NCBI GenBank assembly: GCA_937951625.1 | Contig: CALFBP010000029.1 | Location: 1 to 40,687 of the forward strand | DNA: 40,687 bases | Reading direction: 5' to 3' | Source: an uncultured Thermoguttaceae bacterium | GTDB lineage: Bacteria; Planctomycetota; Planctomycetia; Pirellulales; Thermoguttaceae | Part shown: piece after piece, positions 9,346-21,097 of the stretch | How the letters are laid out: every line of letters begins with the position of its first letter | How positions within the stretch are numbered: the first letter of the stretch is position 1 | Made by a program: the position numbers and the translations under genes | Notes under the pieces: generated by a model | What the model was told of the DNA's origin: nothing | Database searches by the model: none | Seen by the model: only the letters and a program-made list of their open reading frames with translations

Positions 9346-11787
9346 TTACGTTCTCAACAATCGTGCTGCCACCGCGGCTTGTCCCAAGGCGATGCCGCCG
9401 TCGTTGGGCGGCACGAGGCGGTGCGAGTAAACGCGGAAGCCAGCCTGGAGCAAGCGCTCGCGCACGCGGCGGGCGAGAAGGCCGTTTTGGAAACAGCCGC
9501 CGCTGAGCACTACGTCGCGGCCGCCCCATCGCCGCGCAATCGCCACCGCCAACTCGGCCAAGCCATTATGGAAGCGTGCGCTGATCACTGCCACGGGCAC
9601 GTTGGCAGCCCGATCTGCCAACAAATCCCGCATCGCCGGTTCCCAATCCGCAACCCAAGGATTTCCGTCCGCTAGTACGAAGGGATAGCTTTCCTCGCAC
9701 TGTTCGTCTGCCGCGAATTCCAGGGCCATGGCCGCTTGGCCCTCGAAACTGATCACCGGCGGCAACCCGCACAATGCCGCCGCGGCGTCGAACAGGCGGC
9801 CCAGGCTGCTGGTTCGTGGGTAAATTCTAGGCCGGGCGAGGATGGTCAGCAAGCCGCGCATCTCGTCCAGCGAAAACCACTTCGCGGCGTGCTTCTCGGC
9901 CTCCTCGGCGAACATCTCAAACAACAACCCCAAGGCTGAGCGGCGCGGTTCGCGGACCGCCCGATCGCCGCCGACCAGCGCGAAAGTCCGCAGGTGGGCC
10001 AGACGGCGAAAATCGGCAGCGACCCGAGATCGAAACCGTCGCGGCAAATGCGGCCCCAAGGCGGTTGATTCTCGCGGGTCTTGGTCGGCAGCGTCCTCGG
10101 GCAGGAATGCGGCCTCGCCCTGCTGCGGCATCGTGCCCCAATCGCATTCCAGCGCCTCGCCCCCCCACACCGTGCCGTCCAGTCCATAGCCGGTTCCATC
10201 CCAAGAAAGTCCCAGCACCGGCCCGTGGAGTCGATGTTCGACCATGCAGGCCGCCACGTGCGCGTGGTGATGCTGCACCCGCACCAATGGAACGCCCCAT
10301 CGCGAGGCCAGGGCCTCGGCGAGCCTTGTCGAGGCGTAGTCGGGATGGAGGTCGCAGGCCACGGCGTCGGGCCGTGCGCGAAAGAAATCGAGCAAGTCCT
10401 CGACCGTGCGCCGATGCAATTCGGTGCTCGCCACATTGTCCAAGTCGCCCACATGTTGGCTGACGACCACCTGGCTTCCCAAGGCGAGCGCCACCGTGTT
10501 CTTCAAGTGCCCGCCCGTGGCAAGCACCGTCGGACCGGCTTGGAGAAGCCCGATCGGTAGCGGCGCATACCCGCGAGCCCTGCGAAGCAACTGCAAACCT
10601 TCGGGCAGGACGCGGGCGACGGAGTCGTCGACGGGGCGGACGATGGGCCGATCGTGAACCAGGAACACGTCGGCAATCGAACCGAGCCGTTGTACTCCAT
10701 CGTCGATGCGGATGGCCATTGGCTCCTCGGAAAGATTGCCGCTGGTGCAAACGATCGGCCGCCCAATTCGCTCCATGAACAAGTGATGCAACGGTGTATA
10801 GGGCAGCATCACGCCAAGATAAGGATTGCCTGGCGCCACCGCCGCGGCGATGTCATTGGCAGCCAGCGCGTCGCGGCGACGCCGCAGGAGCACGATCGGC
10901 GATTGGGGCGACTCGAGCGCGCGGGCCTCATCCTCCGAGACTTCGCACCGTGCCCGGACTTCGTCGAGCGAGGCGAACATCACGGCAAACGGCTTGTCGG
11001 GGCGGCCTTTGCGAAGGCGGAGTTGTGCGACGGCCTCGGCGTTGGTGGCATCGACGACAAGCTGAAACCCGCCCAAGCCCAAGAGTGCCAGGATTTTCCC
11101 CTCGCCGACGGCCGCTGCGGCCTGATCGAGCGGGTCGGGCGAAGCAGACGCGAGGCTTGGCGGCTGAGGGCACGCTGGGGAGGCGAATAGGTTGAGTTTC
11201 GGCCCGCAACACGGGCACGCTATCGGTTGGGCGTGGAACCGGCGGTCGGCCGGGTTGTGGTACTCGGCCTCGCAGTCCGCACACATCCGAAATCCGGCCA
11301 TAGATGTCCGCGCCCGATCATAAGGCAATTCCGTGATGATCGACCACCGCGGCCCGCAATTCGTGCAATTGGTGAACGGATACCCGTAGCGTCGCTGAGC
11401 CGGGTCGGCGATCTCTTCCCGGCACGCCGCGCACGTGGCCAGATCGGCTGGAATCAGCGGTCGCGGCGGGCCGTGCGACTGACTCGCACGAATGCAAAAG
11501 TCGGACTCCGGCTTCTCGTGGATGGCCACGCGCGTGACCACGGCCTCGTCAACGCGGGCCTGAGGCGGAGGATGGCGACGCACGGCCTCTAGAAATCGCT
11601 CTAGACAAACCGTGGGTCCTTGAACTTCGATCGTGACGGTATCGGCCTCGTTCTGCACCCAGCCCGAAAGACCGAGCGATCGCGCCGCGTTATAGACGAA
11701 CGGGCGGAACCCAACCCCCTGGATCACACCCCGCACGACGATCGACCATCGTTCGCACCTGGGGGTATCGAGAAGTGGTTCGGGCAT
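9346..11787 (-). CDS. hypF: Carbamoyltransferase HypF
   Basis: HypF makes the thiocarbamate precursor of the cyanide ligands of [NiFe]-hydrogenase from carbamoyl phosphate. The domains are in the standard order: acylphosphatase (VVRGVIQGVGFRPF near the N-terminus), two zinc fingers of C-x2-C-x18-C-x2-C type (from CAACREEIADP and CADCEAEYHNP), a YrdC-like domain (LRLRKGRPDKPFAVM, then LPYTPLHHL and VCTSGNLSEEP) and a Kae1-like C-terminal domain (VQHHHAHVAACMVEH, LSWDGTGYG, then LSGGCFQNGLL). I choose ATG 11787 (813 residues), with GGGGA just upstream and the acylphosphatase domain starting 11 residues in. A GTG at 11904 would add 39 non-conserved residues. A ~40-residue Asp/Arg-rich insertion follows WGTMPQQGEAAFLP. 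Confidence 0.93.
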   Translation of the reverse strand: MPEPLLDTPRCERWSIVVRGVIQGVGFRPFVYNAARSLGLSGWVQNEADTVTIEVQGPTVCLERFLEAVRRHPPPQARVDEAVVTRVAIHEKPESDFCIRASQSHGPPRPLIPADLATCAACREEIADPAQRRYGYPFTNCTNCGPRWSIITELPYDRARTSMAGFRMCADCEAEYHNPADRRFHAQPIACPCCGPKLNLFASPACPQPPSLASASPDPLDQAAAAVGEGKILALLGLGGFQLVVDATNAEAVAQLRLRKGRPDKPFAVMFASLDEVRARCEVSEDEARALESPQSPIVLLRRRRDALAANDIAAAVAPGNPYLGVMLPYTPLHHLFMERIGRPIVCTSGNLSEEPMAIRIDDGVQRLGSIADVFLVHDRPIVRPVDDSVARVLPEGLQLLRRARGYAPLPIGLLQAGPTVLATGGHLKNTVALALGSQVVVSQHVGDLDNVASTELHRRTVEDLLDFFRARPDAVACDLHPDYASTRLAEALASRWGVPLVRVQHHHAHVAACMVEHRLHGPVLGLSWDGTGYGLDGTVWGGEALECDWGTMPQQGEAAFLPEDAADQDPRESTALGPHLPRRFRSRVAADFRRLAHLRTFALVGGDRAVREPRRSALGLLFEMFAEEAEKHAAKWFSLDEMRGLLTILARPRIYPRTSSLGRLFDAAAALCGLPPVISFEGQAAMALEFAADEQCEESYPFVLADGNPWVADWEPAMRDLLADRAANVPVAVISARFHNGLAELAVAIARRWGGRDVVLSGGCFQNGLLARRVRERLLQAGFRVYSHRLVPPNDGGIALGQAAVAARLLRT

Positions 11788-11924
11788 CGGTTCCCCATCG
11801 TCTCCAAATCGTTGCGCCGCCGCGGGATCGACCGCGCTGACCGCCTTCTCCAAGACCCGGCGAAGTGGGGACGTCTCGGCCGAAAAAGTGGTAGCCAAAG
11901 GCACCCCTCCGCAGATGGCGATCG

Positions 11925-12569: not shown

Positions 12570-13174
12570 GTGCTTGAGAAGCGAGGCATCCTACCGTACC
12601 TCCCCGTCGTGGTCGTTGCCATCCTCTTCGCCGATGCGAATTTCGCCGCGGAAACCATCTGGCTTTCGTCGCTCGATCCGAGCCGGATGACCGCCGGCTG
12701 GGGCAAACCGCGCATGGACAAGTCGATCGAGGGCAAGCCGATGTCGATCGCCGGCAGCATCGAGAGGGCGGGCAAGTATTGTGGTCACATTGCGGGCGTC
12801 CAATGCGGCGGGGACGATGGAGAACGTTCCGCATCGTTTGCGGGGATACCCTCGCCTCGATCCCGCCCATGGGTTGGAACCATTGATATGGCCACTACAA
12901 CCGCATCACCCACATGATGCGCGAGGCGGCCGACATCATGGTGAGTTCTGGGATGGCCGACGTCAGCTACCAATGCGTGAGCATCGACGACTGTTGAATG
13001 AACGGTTTCAAGCACAGCGACCCGTTGCGGGTCGCGCCGCTCCGCGACGCCAAAGGAAACATCCTCCCCAGTAGGCACCTCCCCGATGTGAAAGACTTGA
13101 CCGATTACATCTACGCTAAGGGCCTGAAGGCGGGAATCTACGCGTCGCCGGGTCCCCTCGAACGTAGTGAGTGA
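12570..13174 (+). pseudogene. NPCBM / GH27 alpha-galactosidase, decayed
   Basis: The first frame (GTG 12570) has a signal peptide and then TIWLSSLDPSRMTAGWGKPR, the start of an NPCBM-type carbohydrate-binding domain that breaks off within ~50 residues. From 12863 a second frame gives the start of a GH27 catalytic barrel: PPMGWNH, then YGHYNRITHMMREAADIMV, SIDDC, MNGFKHSDPLRV and YIYAKGLKAGIYASPGP. Two TGA codons, at 12884 and 12995, sit where family members have Trp (NHW and DDCW), consistent with TGG-to-TGA mutations. The barrel stops after its second or third strand at 13172, before the catalytic Asp residues, and seven bases later the metal transporter operon begins. The gene has therefore lost most of NPCBM, its frame, two Trp codons and the whole C-terminal half. 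Confidence 0.85.
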
Positions 13175-13180
13175 GATCGA

Positions 13181-14143
13181 ATGAGGCTTCCGGCGAAAGC
13201 AACCACGGCTTGTCTCGGCCTGGTGATCGCGGTTACATGGGCAAGCGTGAGCACGGGCTGCCGCCGGGCGGAATCACGCCCCAAGGCTGCACGGCATTAC
13301 CCGCTGCGCGTGGTTTGCACCACGGGCATGGTGGCCGACATGGTCAAGAACATCGGCGGGCGGCACGTGGCAGTGCGAGCGATGATGGGGCCCGGCGTCG
13401 ATCCGCATTTGTACAAAGCCAGCCCGCGCGACGTGCGGATGTTGACCTCGGCCGACGTGGTGTTCTACAACGGCCTGCACCTCGAAGGGCGGCTTTCGGA
13501 TTTGTTGGAGAAGCTCAACCGTTGGAAGCCGGCCTATGCCGTCAGCGACGGGCTCAAACATTCCGACCCGGCGTCGCTCCGCCACATGCCCGGGACGGAA
13601 GGCGTGTACGACCCGCACGTCTGGTTCAACGTCGCCTTGTGGGCGAGGTGCGCGGAATACGCGGCGGAAAGACTCGCTGCGCTCGATCCCGAGCGGGCCG
13701 ACGATTATCGCCGGAATGCCGAAGACTATGTTGCCAAATTGAAGGCTCTCGACGAAGAATGTAGGAAGCGGTTGGCCGAAATCCCGAAAGAGCGGCGGGT
13801 ATTGATCACTGCCCATGATGCCTTCGGCTATTTCGGCGACGCCTACGACGTCGAGGTTCACGGCCTTCAGGGGCTGAGTACCATCGCCGAAGCGGACCTG
13901 GGCGGGGTCAACGAGATCATCGACCTGCTGGTCACACGCCGTATCAAGGCCGTGTTTGTCGAGAGCAGTGTGCCGATCAAGAATATCCGTGCTCTGGTCG
14001 AAGGCTGCGCCGCCCGAGGACACAAGGTGACCATCGGGGGCGAGCTTTACTCCGATGCCCTCGGACCCGAGGGAACCCCCGAAGCAACCTATCTCGGAAT
14101 GGTGGAGCACAACCTGAGAACGATCGTCGAGGCCCTCAAATAG
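13181..14143 (+). CDS. Metal ABC transporter substrate-binding lipoprotein (TroA/ZnuA family)
   Basis: A 320-residue cluster A-I solute-binding protein for Zn2+, Mn2+ or Fe2+. The signal peptide ends in a lipobox (VSTGC, Cys27), so it should be membrane-anchored. The four metal ligands are visible: H76 (DPHLYKAS), H146 (DPHVWF), H212 (AHDAFGYF) and D292 (ELYSDALG). This is the His-His-His-Asp set of Treponema TroA rather than the His-His-Glu-Asp set of MntC/PsaA, and spacings from H146 onward equal those of TroA. There is no His-rich loop of the ZnuA type. The helical backbone linking the lobes is near residues 165-205. It is first of a four-gene operon, with the ATPase 8 bp downstream. Metal specificity (Mn, Zn or Fe) remains open. 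Confidence 0.92.
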
Positions 14144-14151
14144 GACACGCC

Positions 14152-14916
14152 ATGCCAGTACCCCCGGTGGAAATCCACGATATGACGGTTGCCTACCACC
14201 GCAAACCGGTTTTGTGGGACGTGGACATCATCTTGCCCGAAAGAAAGTTGATCGCGGTCGTTGGACCGAATGGCGCAGGCAAGAGCACGCTAATTAAGGC
14301 TGCCTTGGGGTTGGTGCCGCTGGCCAGCGGCAAGGTCGAAATCTACGGTCAACCCTACGCCAGGCAACGGCACCTGGTGGGCTACGTTCCGCAACGGGAA
14401 TCGGTGGACTGGGACTTCCCGGTCACGGTCTTCGATGTGGTGCTCATGGGCACCTATGGGCGGTTGGGGTGGATTCGCCGCCCCGGCCCACGCGAACGCC
14501 AACAGGCCCGCGAGGCCCTGGCCCAGGTGGCCTTGGAATCGTTGGCCGAGCGGCAGATCCGGCAGCTTTCGGGCGGGCAGCAGCAACGGGTGTTCCTTGC
14601 CCGGGCCCTGGTCCAAGACGCCCAGATTTATTTCATGGACGAGCCGTTCGCCGGCGTGGACGCCGCCACCGAGCAAGCCATCGTCGCCTTGCTCAAACAG
14701 CTCAGGGAGCGTGGGAAGACCGTGATCGTGGTCCATCACGATTTGCAGACCGTCCGGCAGTATTTCGATTACGTGGTCCTTCTGAACATGCGCCTGGTGG
14801 ATGCTGGCCCCACGGAGACCACCTTCACCAACGAGAATCTCCAAAAAACGTTCGGCGGTCGGCTGACCATTCTCGAGGAAGCGGCCGAGGCCGTGCGATT
14901 GGGGAAGCCGTCGTGA
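14152..14916 (+). CDS. Metal ABC transporter ATP-binding protein (TroB/MntB type)
   Basis: A 254-residue ABC ATPase that energises the metal importer. It has Walker A ([11 protein letters not shown], about residues 36-46), the Q-loop in [20 protein letters not shown], typical of the Mn/Zn/Fe chelate subfamily, the signature [15 protein letters not shown], Walker [13 protein letters not shown] and the switch His in [11 protein letters not shown]. Length is normal for the family. It starts 8 bp after the substrate-binding gene and is followed at 113 bp by the first permease, so the operon order is TroA-TroB-TroC-TroD. The C-terminal helices carry no additional domain. Confidence 0.95.
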
Positions 14917-15028
14917 AGCGTCGGGAGTCTCTTCCTATGGCGGCCATGGATCTTTTCGGACAAGGGGGCCTTGCCGCACGCTGGTCCCGGAAAAAGGCTC
15001 GAATGCCTCAGGAGATTTGAGCGTCCGC

Positions 15029-16360
15029 ATGACGTACTTGACTTGGATCGTAGCCATCGGCACCTCGCTTTTGGGCTGCGTCGCCGGGGTGGTGGGCAGC
15101 TATGCGGTGCTGCGCCGCCGGGCCTTGGCCGGGGACTTACTCTCCCACGCTGCTTTGCCTGGGCTGTGTCTGGCGTTTCTCCTCTTAGGCGGACGACATT
15201 TCCTAGGAATGCTGGGTGGGGCCTTCGTCGCAGGATTGGCCGGCGTGGCCTTGGTCACTTTCATGTGCCGCTGGACCAGAACTAAGGAAGATGCCGCGTT
15301 GGGCATTGTCCTCAGCACCTTCTTCGGGGCGGGGATCATGCTTTCTTCTTACATCCAGAACATGCCTGGCGGCGGGGCCAAGGCCGGCCTGGAAACCTAC
15401 ATCTACGGCCAGGCGGCCGGGATGATCCGGGAGGACATTTATCTTTTGGCCGTCGTGTCGGTGCTGGTCCTGGTGGTGCTGGTCTTGTTCCACAAAGAGT
15501 TCAAGGTTTTCAGCTTCGATCCCGCGTTCGCCCAGGCCCAGGGTTGGCCCACCCTGACCCTGGACATTGCCATGATGGGCAGCCTGACTCTCGTGACGGT
15601 GGTGGGTTTGCCGTCCGTGGGCGTGGTGCTGATGGCTGCCATGCTCATCATTCCCGCCGCTGCCGCCCGATTCTGGACCGACCGCCTGGAACGGATGCTC
15701 GTCCTTTCCGGAGTGCTGGGCGCTGTCTCGGGCGCGATCGGTTCGCTGATCTCCGCCGGCGCGGTCAAAGGGTGGCTGGGATTCGATCCTTTCGGTGGGG
15801 ACGAGGGCGCGAACCTGCCGACCGGGCCGGTGATTGTGCTGTGCTCGACCACGGTCTTCCTGGTCTCCGTCTTACTTGCTCCCCAAAGGGGGCTTTTGGC
15901 TCGCTCATGGAACTATTTTCGGTTGCGGGCAAAGACCGCCGACGAAAACCTCCTCCGCACCTTGTTCGAGTGCGCGGAACCGCGTCTGCCGACCCTTGTG
16001 ACAGTCCCTTGGGATGAGCTGCTGGCACGCCGCGCATGGAGTCGTGCCAGACTGTTTTGGGTGGTGAGAAGGGCTGGCTGGCGCAACCTGGTTCGCCGGG
16101 CGCCCGGCGGGGTACAGCTTACCCAGCGGGGGCTCGAACAGGCCCGCCGGTTGGTTCGCGCCCATCGACTTTGGGAGTGGTTCCTGATTCACGGCGCCTC
16201 GATCGCCCCGGACCACGTGGATCGGGATGCGGATTCCATCGAACACCTGTTGGGCCCCGACTTGATCGCGGAACTGGAAAACCGATTCATCGCCCAAAGA
16301 GACGCTAGCAACGCGGCGCAGGTCTTGCCGAACTCGCCTCACGAACTGAATGTCCCTTAG
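15029..16360 (+). CDS. Metal ABC permease fused to a DtxR/MntR-like metal-sensing domain (first)
   Basis: 443 residues. Residues 1-290 form an ABC-3 (TroC/ZnuB) permease with about eight hydrophobic segments; VGSYAVLRRRALAGDLLSHA contains the family signature. Residues ~300-440 are cytoplasmic and reproduce a DtxR-family repressor: a winged helix (ENLLRTLFECAEP ... GGVQLTQRGLEQARRLV) followed by the metal-binding and dimerisation helices HRLWEWFLIHGASI and DSIEHLL. Aligned with DtxR, H79 and E83 are H379 and E383, E105 and H106 are E405 and H406, H98 is D398 and C102 is D402, an acidic residue as in MntR. Such a domain could gate transport or bind DNA from the membrane. The start is uncertain: TTG 15017 lies too close to GGAG, ATG 15029 rather far. 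Confidence 0.9.
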   Translation: MTYLTWIVAIGTSLLGCVAGVVGSYAVLRRRALAGDLLSHAALPGLCLAFLLLGGRHFLGMLGGAFVAGLAGVALVTFMCRWTRTKEDAALGIVLSTFFGAGIMLSSYIQNMPGGGAKAGLETYIYGQAAGMIREDIYLLAVVSVLVLVVLVLFHKEFKVFSFDPAFAQAQGWPTLTLDIAMMGSLTLVTVVGLPSVGVVLMAAMLIIPAAAARFWTDRLERMLVLSGVLGAVSGAIGSLISAGAVKGWLGFDPFGGDEGANLPTGPVIVLCSTTVFLVSVLLAPQRGLLARSWNYFRLRAKTADENLLRTLFECAEPRLPTLVTVPWDELLARRAWSRARLFWVVRRAGWRNLVRRAPGGVQLTQRGLEQARRLVRAHRLWEWFLIHGASIAPDHVDRDADSIEHLLGPDLIAELENRFIAQRDASNAAQVLPNSPHELNVP

Positions 16361-16397
16361 GGTCCCACCGCGGTGGCAGCAAACAGACGTTTTTCCC

Positions 16398-17699
16398 ATG
16401 GAATGGTTCAACCACCTAAGCCTTGATGCTCAGAACGACCTTTGGGTGATCGCCGTCGGGGCGATGACCAACACGGCCTGCGCGCTGGTCGGCTGTTACC
16501 TGGTGCTGCGGCGGATGAGCCTGTTGGGCGACGCCATTTCGCACGCCGTACTGCCCGGCCTCGTGGTGGCGTTCGTCTTTTCCGGCAGCCTCAGCGTCGT
16601 TCCGATGTTCGTGGGGGCGTTGCTGGTGGGCCTGCTCACCGCCGCGCTGACCCAGACGCTCCACCGACAGGTGGGCGTGCCCGAGGACGCCAGCATGGGC
16701 GTGGTTTTCACCTCCCTGTTTGCCCTGGGCGTGATTCTCATCAAGCGCTACGCGCATCGCGTGGACCTGGACCCCGACTGCGTGCTGTACGGGTTATTGG
16801 AGTTTGTGGGCTTCAATCTGATCCAAATCGGCCCTTACGAATTTCCTCGGGCGATGCTCAGCGTTGGCTTGGTGCTGGCGTTGAACACGGCGGTGATCGC
16901 GATCTTTTGGAAAGAGCTTCTCATCAGCTCGTTCGATCCGGCTTTGGCTACCACGATGGGCTTCCGCGCCGGCTTGGTCCACTATGTACTGATGGCCCTG
17001 GTCGCGCTGACCACCGTGGCCTCCTTCGAGCAGGTGGGATCGATCCTCGTGATCGCCATGTTGATCGTGCCTGGGGCTGCGGCGCATCTGCTTACGGATC
17101 GCCTGAGCCGGATGTTGGGGATCGCGACGGGAATCGCCATCGGCGCGGCCGTGATCGGTCAGGCGGCCGCGGTATGGCTGAACACGAACACCGCAGGCAC
17201 CATGGCGGCCTTGGCGGGAATCGCCTATCTCGCGGCGGCTTTGGGTTCGCCGCGCTACGGTATCCTCGCCGTCCTGGCACGGAATTTCGCCAGTTCCATT
17301 CGAGTCGTGCGCGAGGACTTGCTGGCAATGCTCTACCGGCTGGAAGAACTGAACATCGAGCGGGCAATGGGGTGGCCCGAGGCGGCCCGCGCGGTCGGAG
17401 GCGGGCTGCTACCTCGGCTCGCTTTGTTTTCCTTGAAACGGCGGGGCGACATCCGTCGCGACGGCGCGGTCCTGCGTCTGACGGATTCTGGTCGCAGCCA
17501 GGCAAAGCTCCTGGTCCGGTCCCATCGCCTTTGGGAGGCCTACCTGGTCCAGCGCCTGGGGTTGCCGCCTGACCACGTCCACGAACCTGCCACGCGCATG
17601 GAACACTACATCGACCGGGGGTTCCAGGAAAAGCTCGCCGACGCCGTGGCCCAGTCCCCCTTAGACCCGCACGGCCGCGACATCCCTCAAAGCGATTAG
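16398..17699 (+). CDS. Metal ABC permease fused to a DtxR/MntR-like metal-sensing domain (second)
   Basis: 433 residues, paralogous in layout to the preceding gene. Residues 1-290 are an ABC-3 permease (ALVGCYLVLRRMSLLGDAIS, the TroD signature, and about eight hydrophobic segments). Residues ~300-420 are DtxR-like: a winged helix (DLLAMLYRLEELNIERAM ... LRLTDSGRSQAKLLV), then HRLWEAYLVQRLGLPPDHVH and RMEHYI. DtxR ligands H79, E83, H98, E105 and H106 correspond to H376, E380, H395, E402 and H403; C102 is T399. Metal site 1 is thus fully kept and site 2 partly. An in-frame ATG at 16350 overlaps the upstream gene end; homologous permeases start near MEWFNHLSL, so 16398 is preferred. The two permeases probably form the heterodimeric channel. 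The stop overlaps that of the convergent isomerase gene. Confidence 0.9.
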   Translation: MEWFNHLSLDAQNDLWVIAVGAMTNTACALVGCYLVLRRMSLLGDAISHAVLPGLVVAFVFSGSLSVVPMFVGALLVGLLTAALTQTLHRQVGVPEDASMGVVFTSLFALGVILIKRYAHRVDLDPDCVLYGLLEFVGFNLIQIGPYEFPRAMLSVGLVLALNTAVIAIFWKELLISSFDPALATTMGFRAGLVHYVLMALVALTTVASFEQVGSILVIAMLIVPGAAAHLLTDRLSRMLGIATGIAIGAAVIGQAAAVWLNTNTAGTMAALAGIAYLAAALGSPRYGILAVLARNFASSIRVVREDLLAMLYRLEELNIERAMGWPEAARAVGGGLLPRLALFSLKRRGDIRRDGAVLRLTDSGRSQAKLLVRSHRLWEAYLVQRLGLPPDHVHEPATRMEHYIDRGFQEKLADAVAQSPLDPHGRDIPQSD

Positions 17700-18616
17700 C
17701 CCTCTAGCCACCGCCGGAGCGCGGCCAAGTCCCGTTGATGGGCCTTGATCGCGTCGGGAATTTCGTGTTTCGGAAACACCCGGTAGCCAAGCCATTCCAT
17801 CTGGATGCACAAAGGCAAGGGAGGCAGGCCGCGTCGGATCTCGCGAAACACGCCCGCGTTCACAAAGCCGGTGTCGAGGGGCACGTCCTTGTACTGATCG
17901 CCGCGGGGACCGAACCACATGCCATCCTTGAGGTAAATGGCGCGGATGTGCGGCTTGCAGGCCGCCACCGCTGTACGCCACGAAGAGCCGGTGTCTTTGA
18001 TGAGGTGGCGGGTGTCGAGGGCCAACCCCAAGGAGTCTGGATCAATGCCGTCCAGCATCATCACAGCGTCCCAGATCAGCGCCCCAAGGTATTTGCCGCC
18101 GGAATGGTTCTGGTAAAGTCCCTGAATTCCGATTTCCTTGTTCAGCGCGGCGAGGTCCTTGGCCTGTTTGGCGAAATCGGCGACCTGGGGCTTGAGCGGC
18201 CGGTCCAGGTCGAGATAGTAGTGGCCCAGCCGGTAATGGGAGATTCCATTCGCCTTGAGCGTCTTGAGGAGGGAGGCGGCAAGCGGCTCATCGGCCCGGC
18301 GGACATCGGTGGCGGCGATCACGATCCGTTTGCCCCGCTTGGCGAGCGCCGCCTGCATCTTGGGGACTTCTTCCGCCGCGGCCTCCGGCTTGATGTGGCC
18401 GTTGGCGCGGATGGTGGCCTCGACGCCATCGGCGCCGATCTGGTCGAGGGCGTCTGCCAATTCGTCGTAATTCAGGGCCTCGAAGACTTTCTCGAAGATC
18501 GTGATGGAGGGCTCATCGCGCTTGGTCGCGGCAGCCACGCTCCCCGACACCCCCGTCGCTGCCACCGTGGAGCCCCAAGCGATCTGCTGGACAAAAAGGC
18601 GGCGTGTCACTCTCAT
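17696..18616 (-). CDS. Tat-exported sugar phosphate isomerase/epimerase-like TIM-barrel protein
   Basis: 306 residues. The N-terminus has a Tat-like signal (RVTRRLFVQQ followed by a small-residue hydrophobic stretch ending near AAA), and the rest is a xylose-isomerase-like TIM barrel: EALNYDELADALDQIGADGV, LYQNHSGGKY, LALDTRHL, IYLKDGMW and a C-terminal MEWLGY. These residues fit the metal-binding face of AP endonuclease family 2 barrels, although the first Glu of the classical set is not obvious. Many planctomycete paralogues of this type are exported and probably act on sugars or cyclitols; the substrate is unknown. AAGGAG lies 8 bases before ATG 18616. The 3' end overlaps the stop of the second permease gene by four bases on the opposite strand. 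Confidence 0.85.
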   Translation of the reverse strand: MRVTRRLFVQQIAWGSTVAATGVSGSVAAATKRDEPSITIFEKVFEALNYDELADALDQIGADGVEATIRANGHIKPEAAAEEVPKMQAALAKRGKRIVIAATDVRRADEPLAASLLKTLKANGISHYRLGHYYLDLDRPLKPQVADFAKQAKDLAALNKEIGIQGLYQNHSGGKYLGALIWDAVMMLDGIDPDSLGLALDTRHLIKDTGSSWRTAVAACKPHIRAIYLKDGMWFGPRGDQYKDVPLDTGFVNAGVFREIRRGLPPLPLCIQMEWLGYRVFPKHEIPDAIKAHQRDLAALRRWLEG

Positions 18617-19075: not shown

Positions 19076-19237
19076 AGGCACTGCTCCCGGGGGCCGCGGG
19101 TTATCCATGGAATTGTTTGGTTACGATTTTTCCGACGCACCGATGTTTTGACGTCGTTTCGTATCATCGCCCGAGAAAAACAACGAAGCCTCACCGCGCT
19201 GCCCGAACTTGCCTTTCTTCTGTTGCCGGAGGTTCCC

Positions 19238-21097
19238 ATGAGCTCCTGCGTGAAAACGGAAAACAAGCCGCTACGTGCAACGAAAGCGCACCACTACCTG
19301 CCATGCGAGTCAAACCGCCCTTGCCTCCTTGTCGTCCTCGGGGGCCTGTTGGTGCTTGCAGTCTCGGGCCGATGGCCTGCTTGGGCGGCGGAAGCGGCCG
19401 CGGTGAGGCCCAACGTGATCGTCATCCTTACCGACGATCAAGGCTATGGCGAACTCGGCGCGACGGGCAATCCCGTCATCCGCACCCCCCACATCGATCG
19501 GCTGGCGGAGCAAAGCCTGTGGCTGACGAATTTCCACGTGATGCCGGTCTGTTCGCCGACCCGGGCGTGTCTGATGACTGGGCGGTACCACTACCGCACG
19601 GGCGTCACCGATACGTATATCGGCCGGTCTCTCATGTATCCCGAGGAAGTCACGCTGGCCGAAATGCTGCGCGCTGCGGGCTACCGGACGGGCATTTTCG
19701 GCAAGTGGCACCTGGGCGACAATTATCCGATGCGGGCCATGGACCAAGGATTCGAAGAGTCGTTGGTGCTCAACGGGGGGGGCCTGGCTCAGCCAGGCGA
19801 TCCCCCCGGCGACGTTGACCCGTTGGGCGCCTATTTCAACCCCACCCTTCGGCGCAACGGCCAGTGGGTGAAGACGAAAGGCTATGTCAGCGACGTGATC
19901 ACCGACGCCGCAATCGAGTTCATCGAGAGGCACCGCGAGGGGCCATTTTTCGCCTTTCTGTCGTTCAATTGTCCTCACGACCCGCACCAGGTCCCCGACG
20001 AATACCGCCGCCGCTATTTGGAGAGAGACTTTCGCCCCGAGGCGTTTCCCAACCATCCCGAGGGACACCCAATGTCGCCGAAAAACGACCCCGAGGTGCT
20101 TGCCCGGGTCTACGGCATGATCGAAAACATCGACGACAACGTCGGCCGCCTGCTGGCGAAACTCGATGACTTGAAACTAGCCAGCCAAACGATCGTGGTC
20201 TTCTTTTCGGACAACGGTTGCCAAAATCATCAAGGCTACAACGCAGGATTTAAGGGCTGGAAAGGCACGGTATACGAAGGCGGGATCCACCAGGTCTGTT
20301 TTCTCCGCTGGCCAGGCCGCTTAGAAGCCGGTAGACGCGTTGACCGGATCAGCTCGGTGATCGATCTAACGCCCACGTTCTTGCAACTCTGCAACGTCGA
20401 GGCTCCACCGGAGGTGAAGTTCGATGGCCGAAGTCTGGTGCCCCTGTTGCGGGGCGAATCGGTCGAGTGGCCGGACCGCGTGCTCTTTTGCCAATGGCAC
20501 CGCGGCGACACGCCGGAGCGCTACCGCGCGTTTGCCGCGCGATCCCAGGATTGGAAACTCGTCCAACCGCTTGGCGCGTTCGAGCGATGGAACGGCAAGA
20601 TGACGTTCGAACTCTATGACATGGCGCGCGATCCGAGGGAACGCCACAACGTGGCCGCCGACCACCCGGAGCTTGTGGCAAAGCTCAAGGCGGCCTACGA
20701 CGCCTGGTTCGACGACGTGACTGCTGGACGGGACTATGCCGTTCCCTCGCGGATTGTTCTCGGCGCCCCGCAGGAAAACCCTGTATTGCTGACGCGTCAG
20801 GACTGGCGTGGCCGCAACGCCAATTGGGGTCCGAAAGGCGAGGGTTATTGGGAGGTCCATGTCGCTGCGGCGGGTCGCTACGCGATCACCGTCCGGTTTG
20901 CGCCCATCACTGCCAAAGGCGAAGTGACCCTGTCGCTCGGTGGCCTCTCCGTCCAGCAACCGGTTCAGGCAGGTCAGGCAGAATGCATCTTCCCCGACGT
21001 GGCTCTCGCGGCCGGTCCCGCCCAAGTCGAGGTCACCGTCCGTCAGGATTCCGTTTCGGGTGGGGTGCGGTACGTCGAATTCAAGCGGCTGAACTAA
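19238..21097 (+). CDS. Formylglycine-dependent sulfatase, secreted, with C-terminal beta domain
   Basis: 619 residues. An N-terminal signal with a long polar head (hydrophobic core LLVVLGGLLVLAVSG) precedes the type I sulfatase fold, which starts NVIVILTDDQGYGELG with the metal-binding Asp pair. The active-site motif is CSPTRACLMTGRY; C105 would be oxidised to formylglycine. Other conserved elements are GKWHLGD, CPHDPHQ and VVFFSDNGCQNHQGYNAG. After the sulfatase core a ~100-residue C-terminal segment (from LTRQDWRGRNANW) has the alternating pattern of a beta-sandwich and may bind polysaccharide. Substrates in this family are sulfated glycans or aryl sulfates; this one is not identified. ATG 19238 is preceded by GGAGG at a good distance; the frame extends upstream without family similarity. 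Confidence 0.9.
   Translation: MSSCVKTENKPLRATKAHHYLPCESNRPCLLVVLGGLLVLAVSGRWPAWAAEAAAVRPNVIVILTDDQGYGELGATGNPVIRTPHIDRLAEQSLWLTNFHVMPVCSPTRACLMTGRYHYRTGVTDTYIGRSLMYPEEVTLAEMLRAAGYRTGIFGKWHLGDNYPMRAMDQGFEESLVLNGGGLAQPGDPPGDVDPLGAYFNPTLRRNGQWVKTKGYVSDVITDAAIEFIERHREGPFFAFLSFNCPHDPHQVPDEYRRRYLERDFRPEAFPNHPEGHPMSPKNDPEVLARVYGMIENIDDNVGRLLAKLDDLKLASQTIVVFFSDNGCQNHQGYNAGFKGWKGTVYEGGIHQVCFLRWPGRLEAGRRVDRISSVIDLTPTFLQLCNVEAPPEVKFDGRSLVPLLRGESVEWPDRVLFCQWHRGDTPERYRAFAARSQDWKLVQPLGAFERWNGKMTFELYDMARDPRERHNVAADHPELVAKLKAAYDAWFDDVTAGRDYAVPSRIVLGAPQENPVLLTRQDWRGRNANWGPKGEGYWEVHVAAAGRYAITVRFAPITAKGEVTLSLGGLSVQQPVQAGQAECIFPDVALAAGPAQVEVTVRQDSVSGGVRYVEFKRLN

Follow-up and report, generated by a model that had tools for sequence, protein, structure and literature searches.

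A DtxR/MntR-like module with an eroded DNA-reading helix at the end of both permeases of a planctomycete TroABCD-type metal importer

What a metalloregulator module is doing at the end of both membrane subunits of a metal importer is the question raised by contig CALFBP010000029.1 (assembly GCA_937951625.1) from an uncultured Thermoguttaceae bacterium, of which the whole stretch of 40,687 nucleotides was analyzed (hereafter, the window). One operon of the window encodes a substrate-binding protein, an ATPase and two ABC-3 permeases (Table 1), as is characteristic of ATP-binding cassette (ABC) importers of the TroABCD type, and each permease carries a DtxR/MntR-like tail behind its transmembrane domain. 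Proteins of the DtxR family are textbook metal-dependent repressors. In the tails, the metal ligands are retained and the DNA-reading helix is eroded, and with moderate confidence we propose that they would act as a cytoplasmic metal sensor gating transport (trans-inhibition), the output of the module having moved from DNA to the membrane complex.

An earlier note on this DNA had claimed that both permeases end in a DtxR/MntR-like module, which is borne out by profile and structure matches. With residues counted from the longest open reading frame start of each permease, Pfam places ABC-3 at residues 12-287 of permease 1 and 32-297 of permease 2, followed by PF02742 at residues 369-422 (46.2 bits, profile positions 1-54 of 70) and 378-447 (72.2 bits, positions 1-70 of 70), respectively, both above the curated cut-off of 27 bits. 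For both transmembrane parts, the closest solved permease is that of the manganese importer PsaBC (7kyp). AlphaFold2 models, built from 29 aligned proteins for permease 2 and 27 for permease 1, show a mean predicted local distance difference test score (pLDDT) of 82.8 (tail blocks 80-93) and 85.0 (dropping to 36-70 beyond residue 390), respectively. The tail model of permease 2 spans DtxR 3-136 and MntR 13-143 and matches Mn-bound MntR (5zr6) clearly, with Z 17.8 and 1.6 Å over 127 residues, whereas that of permease 1 matches DtxR more weakly (Z 10.6, 116 residues, 3.4 Å; Foldseek E about 0.07). Profile matches to MntR (5zr4), spanning winged helix and metal domain, were obtained at 1.1e-24 with the permease 2 family and at 8e-12 with the permease 1 family, and the fold of the latter rests more on this match because its structure match lies near unrelated rows and the Foldseek value is high. 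The complete winged helix of the earlier note holds as a fold for permease 2, less firmly for permease 1, and not as a match to PF01325, which neither permease gives even at E 1. The PF02742 scores (72 and 46 bits) together with the structural agreement led us to reject a chance match. After the last transmembrane helix, a short junction (SPRxG in permease 2, APxRG in permease 1) runs into helix 1, and from the known topology of the ABC-3 fold and homology it follows that the tails should lie on the cytoplasmic side.

At the positions by which a metalloregulator of this family is recognized (79, 83, 98, 105 and 106; DtxR numbering), ligands are present in both tails, permease 1 having Asp for His at 98 (Table 1). 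The residues named previously are correct, with numbers 4 (permease 1) and 16 (permease 2) lower, as counted from ATG 15029 and ATG 16398. At the position of DtxR M10 and MntR D8, which the earlier note did not list, permease 1 has N311 and permease 2 has D323. Homologous tails were counted in distinct rows taken from the best matches to permease 2 (loci sets of 30 and 80), a choice favouring intact tails and leaving out identical rows as well as 10 permease 1 and one permease 2 rows with tails shorter than 125 residues. In permease 2 tails, H79, E83, H98, E105 and H106 are all kept (102/102), with Asp at position 10 in 94 and Glu at position 102 in 64 of the 102. The full set, when allowing Asp, His or Glu at 98, is found in 74 of 88 permease 1 tails, of which 84 have Asp at 98 and 58 have His at 10; His and Asp therefore tend to exchange places between the two tail kinds. 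Among 87 distinct pairs, ligands are lost from permease 1 in 14, permease 2 being intact in all 14. The argument already made that conserved ligands speak against a decaying tail is upheld, and this candidate was rejected since the ligands are conserved over deep divergence.

The DNA-reading part of the module has fared differently. At E 0.01, PF01325 matches both stand-alone controls and no fused protein in sets of 29 and 27 that contain those of the window, and a segment, VSPGTVTSMLKTL, is kept in stand-alone DtxRs of related genomes and absent from the fused tails. For sets thinned to 70% identity, mean pairwise identity of the recognition segment is 0.60 in 14 stand-alone proteins versus 0.27 in 78 permease 1 and 0.25 in 88 permease 2 tails, while the metal segment reaches 0.65, 0.54 and 0.56, respectively. 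When comparing only pairs with 75-85% identity in the metal segment, the recognition segment is at 0.85 in stand-alone proteins, 0.35 in permease 1 and 0.32 in permease 2, and helix 1 at 0.58, 0.63 and 0.70; the gap in the recognition segment between fused and stand-alone proteins holds in all five identity bins. Positions 39 and 43 probably matter for contact with bases, as suggested by the IdeR variants P39G and Q43A listed in PDB titles. Of 101 permease 2 tails, 85, 61 and 80 have a hydrophobic residue at the base-contact positions 39, 40 and 43, respectively, as against none of 43 stand-alone rows (the 30 top PF02742 matches plus 13 neighbours of fused operons), and Arg or Lys occupies position 43 in 52 of 88 permease 1 tails. 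The tails thus keep the winged-helix fold but not its role as a DNA reader, the recognition helix being eroded in both tails across lineages.

How many planctomycetes share the architecture was counted by hand: among 198 sampled genomes from the class, 107 or more carry at least one fused permease. In at least 104 of the 198, a permease match to permease 2 extends to residue 440 or further (three of the 104 with a stop codon inside the matched stretch), and in three further genomes (G006, G046 and G066) another permease reaches residue 440. Within the phylum, 192 of 294 genomes give some match. By our own count, 56 of 80 named loci bear planctomycete titles; the others are from metagenome-assembled genomes (MAGs) titled Kiritimatiellae, Lentisphaeria, Verrucomicrobia, Latescibacterota, Gemmatimonadota, Poribacteria, Desulfobacteraceae, Vicinamibacteraceae, others, or just 'bacterium', and such taxon titles are possibly wrong. 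Strain-named and probably cultured carriers include Bythopirellula polymerisocia Pla144, Aeoliella straminimaris, Roseimaritima sediminicola JC651 and Rhodopirellula sp. SM50. An artefact of a single genome or assembly was rejected, as the fused pair recurs in many genomes. Among the best 30 loci, a tailed permease 1 stands beside permease 2 in 28, a tail-less one in L054 and none within the flank in L038. A tree built from 79 chosen modules places permease 1 tails, permease 2 tails and stand-alone proteins in three separate groups (support 100/96, 99/92 and 100/99), which would fit tails that are old and have been passed on in parallel. Some lineages have tails consisting of the winged helix only, or no tail. 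Three other loci (L158, L159 and L164) encode a single fused permease with a longer, possibly three-domain DtxR, whose extra C-terminal stretch resembles SH3/FeoA (FeoA at 0.0014, below the cut-off, in L164 only).

In the explanation favoured here, the DtxR/MntR module at the cytoplasmic end of each permease of this TroABCD-type transition-metal ABC importer would have been put to a new use, with helix 1 of its winged helix sitting close behind the last transmembrane helix. With plentiful cytoplasmic manganese, iron or zinc, metal would be bound between helix 1 and the dimerisation helices. The tails would then pair with each other as DtxR subunits do and, paired and metal-bound, would hold the permeases in a non-transporting state. 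Speaking for this reading are the kept metal ligands next to an eroded recognition segment, the intact ligands of permease 2 where permease 1 has lost its own, and the separate grouping of the tails in the tree. Trans-inhibition by fused regulatory domains is established for MetNI and ModABC (PMC10710835). The earlier note had offered direct inhibition of transport and operon binding by membrane-held winged helices as models, which is the right pair; trans-inhibition appears preferable, and DNA binding from the membrane less likely given the eroded DNA-reading helix.

Several observations weigh against trans-inhibition. The sole studied relative found, the permease-repressor YtgCR of Chlamydia, is reported to act as a cleaved repressor, and in MetNI and ModABC the regulatory domain is on the ATPase, whereas here it is on the permeases. 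In the window itself the sites are atypical, with Thr at 102 (T415) and Asn at 10 (N311), and the fold list of permease 1 contains an unrelated MarR protein and a replisome chain at Z 9.4-10.0. Moreover, the fused winged helices have charges of +3.2 and +2.5 versus +0.1 in stand-alone proteins, at odds with a simple loss, and helix 3 of permease 1 is Arg-rich, making nucleic-acid contact possible. The samples compared are biased, the fused tails having been chosen by similarity to full-length permease 2 and 30 of the 43 stand-alone rows for being top PF02742 matches, and five of 13 hand-picked odd-tailed pairs have no metal domain on either permease. In the genome of the window (97.9% complete), no PF01325 match and no stand-alone DtxR was found. 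Of the 61 genomes of the same family, 12 apparently have the fused pair, nine of these being without another PF02742 protein, while 27 have PF02742 but no pair and 22 have neither (match positions read by hand). The module is thus often alone in the clade of the window and a regulatory role there is therefore possible.

Among the alternatives, a function in assembly or docking, with dimerisation helices pairing the different permeases or holding the ATPases and metal being structural, is unlikely but survives best. It would suit a module present on both permeases in two distinct kinds as well as the persistence, as for a scaffold, of winged-helix-only tails without metal domain in several lineages; in the 13 pairs mentioned, chosen for oddness and not as a random sample, permease 2 has only the winged helix and eight of the permease 1 partners have a full tail. 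However, assembly alone leaves the ligands kept in all 102 permease 2 tails unexplained, and importers of the PsaBC type assemble without a DtxR-like tail.

Somewhat less probable still is a YtgCR-like permease-repressor, of which the metal-bound tail, either cut off or held at the membrane, would bind and repress the operon promoter. The precedent from Chlamydia, for which DNA binding, repression and cleavage are reported, is in its favour, as are the positive charge of the fused winged helices and the missing stand-alone DtxR in the genome of the window, which has two Fur-family genes. Against it stand the unconserved DNA-reading helix, with hydrophobic residues or Arg at base-contact positions, the 56 fused proteins unmatched by PF01325 and a short conserved junction into helix 1 instead of a loose linker. 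Furthermore, a separate PF01325 protein above the cut-off is encoded in 44 of 50 fusion-bearing genomes (covering 50 of the 80 loci). This coexistence also favours trans-inhibition, as does the stand-alone DtxR that lies inside the fetched flank in 13 of the 80. The six without such a protein are four close relatives of the window (L065, L067, L068 and L070) plus L107 and L127. In most of the 50 carriers, the fused module is an addition to a repressor. One member of the family of the window in which no fused permease was found (L162, genome G011) encodes a 346-amino acid DtxR-like protein with a C-terminal region found twice in the stand-alone profile.

In the 300 bases before the operon of the window, an operator search found no inverted repeats other than GC-rich ones and no palindrome of the DtxR type, which may speak against promoter binding by the tails. 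In other genomes, a DtxR-like palindrome, TGTAGCCNNGGCTACA, was found with up to three mismatches in 17 of 64 upstream regions versus 11 of 650 random windows, a circular comparison since the upstream regions also supplied the consensus. It precedes the operons of L078, L107, L091, L092, L094, L097, L120 and others and is a candidate operator for planctomycete DtxRs; in 16 of the 17 regions, 30-134 bases separate it from the assumed start of the downstream substrate-binding gene. Its occurrence is unlinked to the presence of a separate DtxR, and because two of the 17 genomes (L107 and L127) are without a PF01325 protein above the cut-off, the palindrome does not reveal its binder. The best match in the window has six mismatches, and with up to three mismatches the motif is not enriched in the genome of the window (100 matches versus 400 for the reversed control). 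A perfect TGAGAC-GTCTCA palindrome, perhaps a Fur-family site, precedes the operon in two of 66 upstream regions, both from related genomes (L071 at -39, L117 at -64). In the window, a promoter scan stayed at chance (1 versus a mean of 1.0), and nine terminator-like sites were counted versus a mean of 4.4.

It is quite improbable that the tails serve as metal relay or buffer, catching incoming metal at the cytoplasmic exit and handing it on: the placement of the predicted metal sites after the final transmembrane helix, on the cytoplasmic side by homology, would fit, but sites of the DtxR type are sensing sites and the winged helix would presumably be superfluous. Vestigial tails heading for loss are least credible, the ligands lost in 14 of 88 distinct permease 1 tails and the winged-helix-only or missing tails of some lineages being outweighed by permease 2 tails that keep ligands and the DPHG..IP motif over deep divergence and are intact in all 87 distinct pairs.

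If the tails do gate transport, a metal switch that elsewhere acts on DNA now acts on a membrane transporter, one protein family having shifted from gene control to direct control of transport. Metal feedback would then be immediate and not proceed via new mRNA, trans-inhibition would extend to these transition-metal ABC importers in the manner of MetNI and ModABC, and the coexistence of stand-alone and fused DtxRs in many carriers (44/50) would be explained. An evolutionary frame for YtgCR would also be provided: there is about an even chance that, in a widespread class of metal importers, both permeases took up a DtxR repressor whose DNA reader was then lost and which turned into a paired allosteric metal sensor of the pump, with the YtgCR lineage keeping or regaining a repressor role. 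With strain-named, probably cultured carriers at hand, the idea is testable.

The source genome comprises 4.59 Mb in 105 contigs, and the closest named relatives via permease 2, each 69% identical, are two MAGs with the titles Thermoguttaceae (L065) and Blastopirellula marina (L067). For the importer ATPase, the best NCBIfam model is an Mn/Fe ABC ATPase, at a score under the model cut-off. In-frame starts are TTG 15017 and ATG 15029 for permease 1 and ATG 16350 and ATG 16398 for permease 2; as alignments with the closest homologues begin at permease 2 residue 17, the starts used in the earlier note (ATG 15029 and ATG 16398) are probably right. Just before the operon and overlapping its promoter region are the remains of an apparently decayed alpha-galactosidase gene, and no functional tie to the importer was seen for the neighbouring HypF, triosephosphate isomerase (TIM) barrel and sulfatase genes.

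Table 1. Importer operon of the window, domains of its permeases and neighbouring genes.
Feature	Position	Strand	Evidence and remarks
Substrate-binding protein, ZnuA/TroA type	13181..14143	+	PF01297 2.9e-79
Importer ATP-binding protein	14152..14916	+	PF00005 1.6e-27
Permease 1 (TroC position), fused DtxR-like tail	15017..16360	+	ATG 15029 likelier start
Permease 1 ABC-3 transmembrane domain	15050..15877	+	PF00950 2.7e-58; PsaBC permease 7kyp Z 33.4
Permease 1 tail, winged-helix part	15923..16120	+	AlphaFold2 model; Z 10.6 to DtxR; without PF01325; DNA-reading helix eroded, Arg-rich
Permease 1 tail, metal-binding/dimerisation part	16121..16306	+	PF02742 4.5e-12; H383 (79), E387 (83), D402 (98), D406 (102), E409 (105), H410 (106)
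Permease 2 (TroD position), fused DtxR-like tail	16350..17699	+	ATG 16398 likelier start
Permease 2 ABC-3 transmembrane domain	16443..17240	+	PF00950 9.5e-48; PsaBC permease 7kyp Z 30.7
Permease 2 tail, winged-helix part	17295..17480	+	AlphaFold2 pLDDT 80-93; without PF01325; DNA-contact face hydrophobic; D323 in helix 1
Permease 2 tail, metal-binding/dimerisation part	17481..17696	+	PF02742 3.5e-20; H392 (79), E396 (83), H411 (98), T415 (102), E418 (105), H419 (106); DPHG..IP
HypF (hydrogenase maturation)	9346-11904	-	
Alpha-galactosidase gene, apparently decayed	12896-13171	+	two partial PF16499 matches (6.5e-4 and 6.2e-4), neither reaching the cut-off, stop codon between
Xylose-isomerase-like TIM barrel protein	17696-18616	-	
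Sulfatase	19148-21097	+	

Contrary to the earlier statement that no functional description of such fusions was known, YtgCR (CT069) of Chlamydia has been studied since 2011-2012 and is cleaved to an iron-dependent repressor, according to a review and further papers (among PMC5599777, PMC7755916, PMC6504234 and PMC4989314). In the open-licence literature, nothing was found on planctomycete fusions or on a DtxR module controlling transport. YtgABCD is likewise a TroABCD-type importer of bacteria from the Planctomycetes-Verrucomicrobia-Chlamydiae group with a DtxR-like module behind the first permease, and an ABC-3 permease with such a C-terminal module is what the window encodes; however, only YtgC is described there as fused, with a module that is cleaved and binds DNA, whereas here the fusion extends to both permeases, and erosion of the DNA-reading helix speaks against DNA binding as in YtgCR. 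Repressors of the Treponema TroABCD-TroR type and stand-alone DtxR/MntR share the metal-binding/dimerisation domain, the ligands and the winged-helix fold, but TroR-type repressors are separate, soluble and conserved in the DNA-reading helix. With MetNI and ModABC, the proposed likeness is a fused cytoplasmic domain that binds the imported substrate and stops transport; their domain, of another fold, is on the ATPase, and inhibition is established there while it is proposed here. The ATPase of the window has 254 amino acids and no extra Pfam domain. PsaBC (7kyp), structurally closest in the membrane part, is without a DtxR-like tail (chain of up to 290 residues). This kind of fusion is already known from Chlamydia, and a distinct and widespread variant of it has both permeases fused to a module whose DNA reader is eroded.

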